From: Acidobacteriota bacterium
GTDB taxonomy: Bacteria > Acidobacteriota > Thermoanaerobaculia > Multivoradales > JBCCEF01
NCBI GenBank assembly: GCA_039028635.1
Contig: JBCCHV010000054.1
Coordinates: forward strand, 1 to 45,949
DNA length: 45,949 nt
Direction of reading: 5' to 3'
The translations under genes were made by a program, and so were the position numbers. The notes beneath the pieces were generated by a model that was not told the origin of the DNA, ran no database searches, and was given only the letters and a program-made list of their open reading frames with translations. Shown here piece after piece: positions 32,546 to 35,891 of this stretch; position 1 is the stretch's first letter; each line of letters begins with the position of its first letter.

Positions 32546-32561
32546 CAGGGGGGCTAGAGGC
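32546..32561 (+). repeat. Dispersed intergenic repeat, copy 2 left end
   Basis: CAGGGGGGCTAGAGGC matches the start of copy 1 at 9905, apart from one base. The rest of the copy resumes at 33833 on the other side of the IS element. Confidence 0.6.
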
Positions 32562-32597
32562 CACTGCTGTCCCACAAACTGGGAGGGTAGAGGCAAG

Positions 32598-32674
32598 AAG
32601 GCCTGGTTTCTGAGTCCGTTGTTACAATGAAGGTGCGACCCAAACCATTGAAACAACGAAGGAAACCAGGCCTT
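32598..32674 (+). promoter_or_regulatory. Long hairpin covering the transposase start
   Basis: AAGGCCTGGTTTC (32598-32610) is perfectly complementary to GAAACCAGGCCTT (32662-32674). Inside it, CGTTGTT (32617-32623) pairs with AACAACG (32652-32658), and CAATG (32625-32629) with CATTG (32646-32650). The right arm runs into the TTG start codon (32673-32675) and encloses the ribosome site AAGGA. TACAAT (32623-32628), a good -10, lies in the left arm, so the element's own transcript would lack that arm and be translated, while read-through transcripts would fold shut. Confidence 0.75.
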
Positions 32675-33812
32675 GGCTCACAATTCTACCGTTCTCAGCC
32701 AGCTGCTCAAGCTGATTCCTCGACATGAATTCGAATCGGCGGCTCGTCGCCACCACCGAGGTCGTCGTTTGCGGTCGATTCGTCGCTGGGATCAGCTGGT
32801 GGCTCTGGCGACTGCGCAGTTGACCCGGCGAGCCAGCCTTCGGGACTTGGTCTCGAATCTCCGGGCTCAGAGCCACAAGCTCTACCACGTCGGGGCTCGA
32901 CCGGTGAGTCGTTCTTCGCTGGCTCGGGTTAATCGGGATCAGCCGGCCAGTTTGTACCAGGAGATCTACGAGAAGCTCCTGGCCCGAACCTCTCCGCACG
33001 CTCCTCGCCACCAATTCAAGTTTCAGGGCAAGCTGTTCTCGCTGGATGCGACCTTCTTGAAGCTGACGGCCTCGATGTTTCCGTGGGCCAAATTCAACAC
33101 CGCCAAAGGGGCCGCCAAGCTGCATATCGGCTTGGATCACGATGGCTACTTACCGCGATTCGTGGAGCTGACGGACGGCCAGAGCTACGACGGGGATTGG
33201 GCGAGAACCTTGGACCTTCCGGCCGGAAGCGTGGTGGTTTTCGACCGCGGATACGTCGACTTCAAGCTGTTCAAACGCTTGATAAGCCGAGAGATCCGCT
33301 TCGTGACCCGGCACCGTCGCGATCTGCGCTACACCGTCTTGGAGCGTCGCCCGGTCGAGCCCGACACTGGCTTGACGAGTGACCAGCTCATCCGCATGCA
33401 AGGCAAGAGCGGCTTGGTTCTGCGACGCATCGGTTATCGCGATCCCGAGTCCGGCAAGCACTACGTCTTCCTCACCAACGCCGAGGATCTGCCAGCCCTC
33501 ACCATCACTCAGATCTACAAGGAGCGCTGGAAGATCGAGATCTTCTTCAAGTGGATCAAGCAGAACCTTCGGGTCTTGAACTTCCTCGGCACCAGTCCCA
33601 ACGCCGTGCTCTCTCAGATCTGGGTCGCCCTCATCGTCTACCTCCTCCTCCAGCAACTCAAACTCAGAGCCAAGGTCGAAGGCTCTCTCCAGAAGATCCT
33701 CAGGCTCCTCCAGCTCAACCTCTTCGACCGAAGAAACCTCCTACAGCTCCTCAGACCACCGCCCAAACAACCCCCAGAGGAACAGCTCCAACTCCCGATC
33801 AACGCTCTCTGA
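32673..33812 (+). CDS. IS4-family transposase (DUF4372-type N-terminus)
   Basis: A 379-residue DDE transposase starting at TTG. The N-terminal 70 residues (LLKLIPRHEFESAARRHH, then WDQLVALATAQLTRRASLRDL) match the DUF4372 domain of some IS4-family enzymes. The catalytic triad is visible: Asp125 (SLDATFL), Asp191 (VFDRGYVD) and Glu289. The last lies in the exact IS4 signature Y282-x2-R285-x3-E289-x6-K296. No frameshift or stop interrupts it. Translation is probably held down by the hairpin over its start. Confidence 0.95.
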   Translation: MAHNSTVLSQLLKLIPRHEFESAARRHHRGRRLRSIRRWDQLVALATAQLTRRASLRDLVSNLRAQSHKLYHVGARPVSRSSLARVNRDQPASLYQEIYEKLLARTSPHAPRHQFKFQGKLFSLDATFLKLTASMFPWAKFNTAKGAAKLHIGLDHDGYLPRFVELTDGQSYDGDWARTLDLPAGSVVVFDRGYVDFKLFKRLISREIRFVTRHRRDLRYTVLERRPVEPDTGLTSDQLIRMQGKSGLVLRRIGYRDPESGKHYVFLTNAEDLPALTITQIYKERWKIEIFFKWIKQNLRVLNFLGTSPNAVLSQIWVALIVYLLLQQLKLRAKVEGSLQKILRLLQLNLFDRRNLLQLLRPPPKQPPEEQLQLPINAL

Positions 33813-33832
33813 AAACTTTGTGGGACAGCAAT

Positions 33833-33963
33833 GGCTAAAGGCGCCCCCCTCGGGCGCGCGGCCCGGCTTCGCGCATGTCGCGCGCCCTCACCCCCATCCT
33901 CGGCGGCCTACGCCGCCGCCTCGCCCGGTGGGCTCGGGAGCCGCCTGCTGGTTAGCAGGCGGC
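33833..33963 (+). repeat. Dispersed intergenic repeat, copy 2 right part, with three hairpins
   Basis: GGCTAAAGGCGCC (33833-33845) continues the repeat split by the IS. Three stems follow: GGGCGCGC/GCGCGCCC (33852-33887), CGGCGGC/GCCGCCG (33901-33918) and AGCCGCCTGCT/AGCAGGCGGCT (33939-33964). Up to 34080 nothing else is seen besides the ribosome site of the next gene. Confidence 0.6.
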
Positions 33964-35255: not shown

Positions 35256-35372
35256 CCGCGAGCCTCCTTGTCTTGGCGAGGCTCCATCATAGCGGTAGTG
35301 ACGGCAAAAGGCCTCGCCACCGGGAGCCGGGAGGAGATAGAGTCCACGGCGACCGATGGGAGATCCGACACG

Positions 35373-35891
35373 ATGAGCCACCACCGCAAGCCGCCCGTCC
35401 GCCGCCTGACGATCCTTTTCCCGCTCTGTCTCCTCCTCACCGTGGGCTGCGTCAGTGGACAGGCCGCTCCAGCTTCTGCGACGGCTTCCGCAGCGTCAGC
35501 GGCGGGACCTTCCGACACCGACTGCGAGCGCCTCGCCGGCGAGTGGGTCAACGAGCTCGACTCGGTGCTCGCCATCGACTCCATCGACAGCACCAGCGGA
35601 CGCATCGAGGGGCGGTATATCTCATCGACCTCGACCGATGGTCGAACTTTCCCGATGATCGGCTGGAGCAACGACCGCGAACCGGAGGCGGAGGGACATC
35701 ACGCCCGAGTCGTCACCTTCACGGTCCACTGGGGCGACTACGGCAGCCTCACCGCCTGGACCGGCTACTGCTTCGCCGACGACGGGCGCCCGACGCTGCG
35801 CACCAACTGGAATCTGGTTCGCCCCAACAGCGAGTTCCGCTGGGACCACATTCACTCCGACAGCTCGGTCTTCGTGCCCCGCTCGCAGTAA
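35373..35891 (+). CDS. Avidin-family biotin-binding lipoprotein
   Basis: A 172-residue protein. The signal ends in a lipobox with Cys26 (LLLTVGC), and a Ser/Ala-rich linker leads to an avidin barrel at 51-170. Against streptavidin, all biotin contacts have counterparts: Asn60, Ser64 (GEWVNELDS), Tyr82, Ser84 (GRYISS), Trp120 (TVHW), Ser125, Thr127, Trp129 (GSLTAWTG), Trp146 (TNWNL), Trp157 and Asp163. Trp157 is the residue that reaches into the neighbouring subunit. Cys51 and Cys133 may form a disulfide. Known avidins bind biotin very tightly and are thought to starve competitors or predators. Being lipid-anchored is unusual and suggests retention on the cell. The ATG at 35373 is preferred to the open frame back to 34947. 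Confidence 0.9.
   Translation: MSHHRKPPVRRLTILFPLCLLLTVGCVSGQAAPASATASAASAAGPSDTDCERLAGEWVNELDSVLAIDSIDSTSGRIEGRYISSTSTDGRTFPMIGWSNDREPEAEGHHARVVTFTVHWGDYGSLTAWTGYCFADDGRPTLRTNWNLVRPNSEFRWDHIHSDSSVFVPRSQ

Follow-up and report, generated by a model that had tools for sequence, protein, structure and literature searches.

Streptavidin and chicken avidin are secreted soluble proteins with which the protein described here shares its predicted barrel fold; chicken avidin carries a disulfide, and its cysteine pair resembles the one found here. The protein departs from both in having Ser165 at the position held by Asp128 in streptavidin and Asn118 in chicken avidin, and in a lipobox-like cysteine and a linker that occur in neither of them. 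Among the bacterial avidins covered by a survey, about half have a signal peptide, and the roles proposed for such proteins are mostly competition, defence and pathogenesis (PMC8033661, in the part of the paper available); the word 'lipoprotein' is absent from its main text. In a literature search of mainly open-access papers, judged on titles and the first lines of abstracts, no natural lipid-anchored avidin stood among the papers listed. A lipid-anchored barrel for small ligands is described for the calycin-fold lipoproteins YxeF and Blc (PMC3367933, available portion), which are lipocalin-like and not avidins, and which are set beside the present protein by description only.

The protein is encoded in the window, that is, in the whole stretch of 45,949 nucleotides analysed here. 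Its best explanation, to which we give roughly even credence, is an exported, lipid-anchored avidin held at the cell envelope, with biotin binding that is probably weaker than that of streptavidin.

The gene and its predicted fold

The gene (35373..35891, + strand) encodes 172 residues plus a stop from an ATG start, preceded at a distance of 10 bases by GGGAG (35358..35362, +), a probable ribosome-binding site judging by its sequence. Residues 54-167 of the product match the Pfam family PF01382 (Avidin) at 2.5e-25, scoring 89.5 bits where the cut-off is 24, and the product matches avidins of the PDB from 1.3e-12 by sequence; the open reading frame is thus real and encodes a true member of the avidin family, as the earlier note had proposed. 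It is the sole PF01382 match within its own genome (6.28 Mb, 95% complete). Its GC content of 0.669, compared with 0.674 for a sample of the genome, lends no support to a recent transfer judged by composition.

The AlphaFold2 model, built from an alignment of ten sequences (the window protein and nine relatives, one of them a fragment), places eight strands in the span from residue 56 to residue 169, with a mean pLDDT of 75.6 and a pTM of 0.62; pLDDT stays near 50 across residues 1-50. For the structure alignment the broken sequences L025 and L026 were omitted, and L024, which lacks a start, was retained as a fragment. The top PDB matches of the model are all avidins: xenavidin comes first (4.7e-8 by Foldseek; by VIA-align Z 16.6, with 112 residues at an rmsd of 1.9), and streptavidin (1luq) aligns with Z 16.1 over 113 residues. 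The fold is thus predicted to have eight strands and to be the avidin barrel that the earlier note had read from the sequence, formed by residues 54-169 (35532..35879, +) on the combined basis of Pfam, model and structure matches.

Two cysteines have likely counterparts in chicken avidin: Cys51 (35523..35525, +), which aligns one column off Cys4 of chicken avidin, and Cys133 (35769..35771, +), which aligns with its Cys83. A disulfide between them is likely from these positions and would fit an exported protein. Among ten relatives with the same kind of barrel (the eight nearer ones, from Saprospiraceae, Desulfobacteraceae, Paracidovorax, Paraburkholderia, Burkholderia and, three times, Xanthomonas, together with those of genomes G015 and G399), nine have both cysteines and the Desulfobacteraceae protein has neither.

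Leader, linker and probable anchor

The leader ends in LLTVG-C26, followed by VSGQAAPASATASAASAAGPSDTD up to Cys51. Read as that of a lipoprotein, the signal peptide would comprise residues 1-25 (35373..35447, +), and Cys26 (35448..35450, +) would be the lipidation site; the stretch that follows (residues 27-50; 35451..35522, +) is a linker of 24 residues, Ala/Ser-rich with Gly and Pro, modelled at low confidence and longer than in the relatives examined. The motif LLTVGC fits the looser of two lipobox patterns, one of the PROSITE type, and fails the stricter one, [LVI][ASTVI][GAS]C, because of the Thr at -3, not a usual residue there; leaders ending in LFTAG-C and LSVG-C occur in the same genome, so that Thr or Ser at this position is attested in it. 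The lipobox named in the earlier note is therefore present in its looser form only, and it stands next to a rival: five residues beyond Cys26 lies GQA/AP, by its sequence an acceptable site for signal peptidase I, which would extend the signal peptide to residue 31 (35373..35465, +).

If this second site were used, signal peptidase I would cut after Ala31, Cys26 would be lost along with the cleaved leader, and the mature avidin would be soluble, either secreted or periplasmic, with a disordered tail of 19 residues before Cys51; it would sequester biotin in the periplasm or the medium, a role that has been put forward for other avidins from bacteria. We regard this as possible, if doubtful. It draws on the GQA/AP site itself and on the leader-bearing relatives, which by eye resemble signal peptidase I substrates. 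A lipobox-like Cys is found in seven of 39 rows of the family, namely in the window protein, in five proteins of Xanthomonas and Paracidovorax, where LLGSC or LLGGC is followed by SLAQA, and in L036, where the Cys lies upstream of AQA; such a residue can thus occur in leaders with the appearance of signal peptidase I substrates, where a soluble protein would carry it by chance or history. A soluble form leaves unexplained why 24 residues of linker, a usual tether of lipoproteins, follow Cys26. In most relatives whose leaders fit signal peptidase I, 3-5 residues (by eye) separate the likely cleavage site from the first Cys. This holds for those of Xanthomonas, Paracidovorax, Burkholderia, Paraburkholderia, Saprospiraceae and G399; the distance is about 10 residues in G015, and the Desulfobacteraceae relative has about 15 residues before the barrel, again by eye.

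A control within the same genome bears on both readings. In 60 stretches of the genome, with home-made, crude calling of open reading frames (910, or 939 with the window included), Cys occupies 12 of 225 N-terminal lipobox-like contexts with a linker-like continuation and 14 of 809 without one; the corresponding counts for internal hydrophobic contexts are 7/179 and 22/2282. The N-terminal, linker-like class is enriched relative to all internal hydrophobic contexts (29/2461; p 8e-5), and shows no enrichment over internal contexts with a linker-like continuation of their own (p 0.64), a negative outcome that counts in favor of a soluble protein; two of the seven internal Cys (L081 and L112) resemble, by eye, true lipoprotein starts in over-extended frames. 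A looser version of the control gave 24/908 versus 18/1484. Overall, the control provides moderate, partly negative support for lipidation.

The lipid anchor is thus favored by Cys26 in combination with the 24-residue linker, and weakened by GQA/AP and by the two other avidin lineages with a lipobox-like Cys before AQA; on balance, we judge lipidation of Cys26 probable from these sequence features. The residue at +2 after Cys26 is Val and not Asp; under the E. coli rule, by which a residue other than Asp at this position directs a lipoprotein to the outer membrane, the lipidated form would be expected there. For a lipid-anchored avidin, signal peptidase II would cut the leader, Cys26 would be lipidated, and the protein would be carried to the outer membrane, where the flexible linker would keep the barrel away from the membrane; the barrel would bind biotin, with a looser grip than that of streptavidin owing to Ser165, and would hold or capture it at the producer's own envelope instead of being spread as a soluble agent.

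The biotin pocket

Ten of the eleven biotin contacts listed in the earlier note are identical to streptavidin at aligned positions, in an alignment that includes chicken avidin: N23, S27, Y43, S45, W79, S88, T90, W92, W108 and W120 of streptavidin correspond to N60, S64, Y82, S84, W120, S125, T127, W129, W146 and W157. All four Trp are kept, among them the inter-subunit Trp157, whose retention, from which the earlier note had suggested a possible dimer or tetramer, had been correctly noted. The claim of a full set fails at the eleventh, Asp163 (35859..35861, +), which had been taken for the counterpart of Asp128 and is excluded from this role by the sequence alignments and the structural register. 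Ser165 (35865..35867, +) follows W157 by eight residues, as D128 follows W120 in streptavidin, and the structural alignment places residues 53..171 of the model on residues 16..134 of streptavidin, the numbering differing by 37 at each end; together with the equivalence of W157 and W120, this puts Ser165 on position 128 and Asp163 on position 126, which is Gly in streptavidin. At other pocket positions, V47 is replaced by T86, N49 by T88, and L110 is conserved as L148.

Asp or Asn at position 128/118 is usual in tight biotin binders and is not needed for family membership; among the eight nearer relatives the residue is Asp in seven and Ser in the Desulfobacteraceae one. In streptavidin, the D128A substitution costs 4.4 kcal/mol by calorimetry (PMC4888747, in the part available), which by our arithmetic is about a thousandfold loss of affinity; Ser differs from Ala, so this cost may not transfer to Ser165. 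With ten contacts in place, the protein probably binds biotin, and the replacement of Asp128 by Ser165 perhaps makes its grip looser than that of streptavidin; the high affinity that the earlier note had suggested is too strong a claim. Ser165 may also abolish tight binding instead of weakening it, and Asp163, which lies on the same strand two residues away, may partly compensate.

That the barrel has given up tight biotin binding, or binds another small molecule, is improbable: Ser165, the Thr residues at the V47 and N49 positions, the loss of most pocket residues in two proteins of the same order (L005 and L008), by which drift off biotin does happen, and the binding and neutralization of acidomycin by streptavidin (reported in 2026; PMC13336041, available portion), from which it follows that avidins can have further ligands, have to be set against the retention of ten of the eleven listed contacts, all four Trp among them, and against the Desulfobacteraceae relative, whose same contacts and same Ser argue against simple decay.

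Relatives, neighborhood and biotin economy

Matches to PF01382 near the lineage of the window are rare: they occur in five of 396 genomes of the host phylum, one of them with internal stops, and in six of 148 genomes of the host class, one of them a short partial match; at L053, 35 of the 116 positions of the profile are matched. The count is 16/398 for the phylum to which the Xanthomonas relative belongs, the genome at the center of the sample included, and 1/395, which is the central genome itself, for that of the Saprospiraceae relative. A first scan of genome contigs gave no loci and a second, with alignment A3, gave 11; L009 and L010 were rejected as avidins, their open reading frames resembling by eye other proteins with lipoprotein-like leaders. 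The viral contigs and phage records searched contained no relatives of the window avidin. Broken genes are seen in G044 (L004, two internal stops) and, as fragments, in Candidatus Burkholderia pumila (L026).

In a tree of 26 rows, from which 16 loci (window repeats, broken or partial rows, distant groups) and also identical barrels were omitted, good support is reached by five of the 23 inner branches, and the grouping of the window protein with L016 and L019 (82/88) is not one of them. L016, from a Saprospiraceae MAG, is 52% identical over query residues 51-170, and L019, from a Desulfobacteraceae MAG, 48% over residues 49-172; both have the listed contacts, and both differ from the window protein in lacking a lipobox-like Cys and in a shorter stretch between leader and barrel. 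At the position of Asp128, L019 has Ser like the window protein, and L016 has Asp. The Xanthomonas plasmid avidins (for example WP_022557741.1; 44.7% identity over residues 51-172) share the Cys pair, the listed contacts and a leader Cys (LLGSC) with the window protein, and are unlike it in having Asp at the Asp128 position and a clear AQA site, and in lacking a long linker. Their plasmids are in many cases conjugative; at L011 the avidin follows traG on a Xanthomonas plasmid, and at L016 its neighbors are a T4SS coupling protein, a nuclease and another avidin, so that avidins of this group stand among conjugation genes in two phyla.

The proteins L005 (1423-1959, -) and L008 (1375-1932, -), from G015 and G399 of the same order, score above the Pfam cut-off and retain Asp128 and Trp120, and have lost most of the residues that contact biotin (N23 to Thr, S27 to Ala, W79 to Phe, S88 to Gly, W108 to Asp); by sequence they are perhaps avidin barrels with another ligand. 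In the longer avidins L040, L041, L044 and L052, the C-terminal part is a candidate for a second avidin barrel in degenerate form: it matches their own first barrel in a profile comparison (probability 89%, E 2.2e-6, 108 columns), while against alignment A3 the probability is 1.3% and none of the four has a Pfam match in this part. The bacterial-avidin survey describes C-terminal extensions in which it found no domain (PMC8033661).

Upstream of the window gene lies a divergent CoxG-type gene (34644 to about 35255), followed by a hypothetical open reading frame, an insertion sequence (32560-33835, at a distance of 1.5 kb from the avidin gene, with 19-base inverted repeats at 95% and a DUF4372/DDE_Tnp_1 transposase) and an efflux set of three genes; a gene for a PDZ protein follows downstream on the opposite strand. 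None of the named neighbors is a biotin gene.

In the 95% complete genome, bioB, bioD and BioY gave no match at E 0.001 and BirA is present, so that biotin is probably used by the cell but not produced, and would have to come from outside. The lack of matches to the synthesis genes bioB and bioD is compatible with capture or storage of biotin by the avidin, and equally so with defence. Within the class, bioB is above cut-off in 14/148 genomes and, among the six genomes with an avidin match, in G015 alone; the lack of a match is thus common in the class, and these counts do not support a connection of avidin with lost biotin synthesis. Biotin auxotrophy may be common across the class. The lack of such a link, together with the lack of a biotin gene nearby, counts against an envelope-held avidin in the role proposed here. 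A more specific version of the lipid-anchored reading, in which the change from Asp128 to Ser loosens the grip so that an auxotroph without BioY could capture biotin reversibly at its surface, is rather unlikely; if true, it would mean that the avidin serves acquisition and not the starving of others.

The correction at Ser165 matters to anyone treating the protein as a high-affinity surface binder, and the naturally occurring Ser in place of Asp128 makes it possible to test the extent of affinity tuning in nature. How bacterial avidins benefit their owners is an unsettled question; if anchored to the cell that makes it, an avidin would be of direct benefit to that cell.
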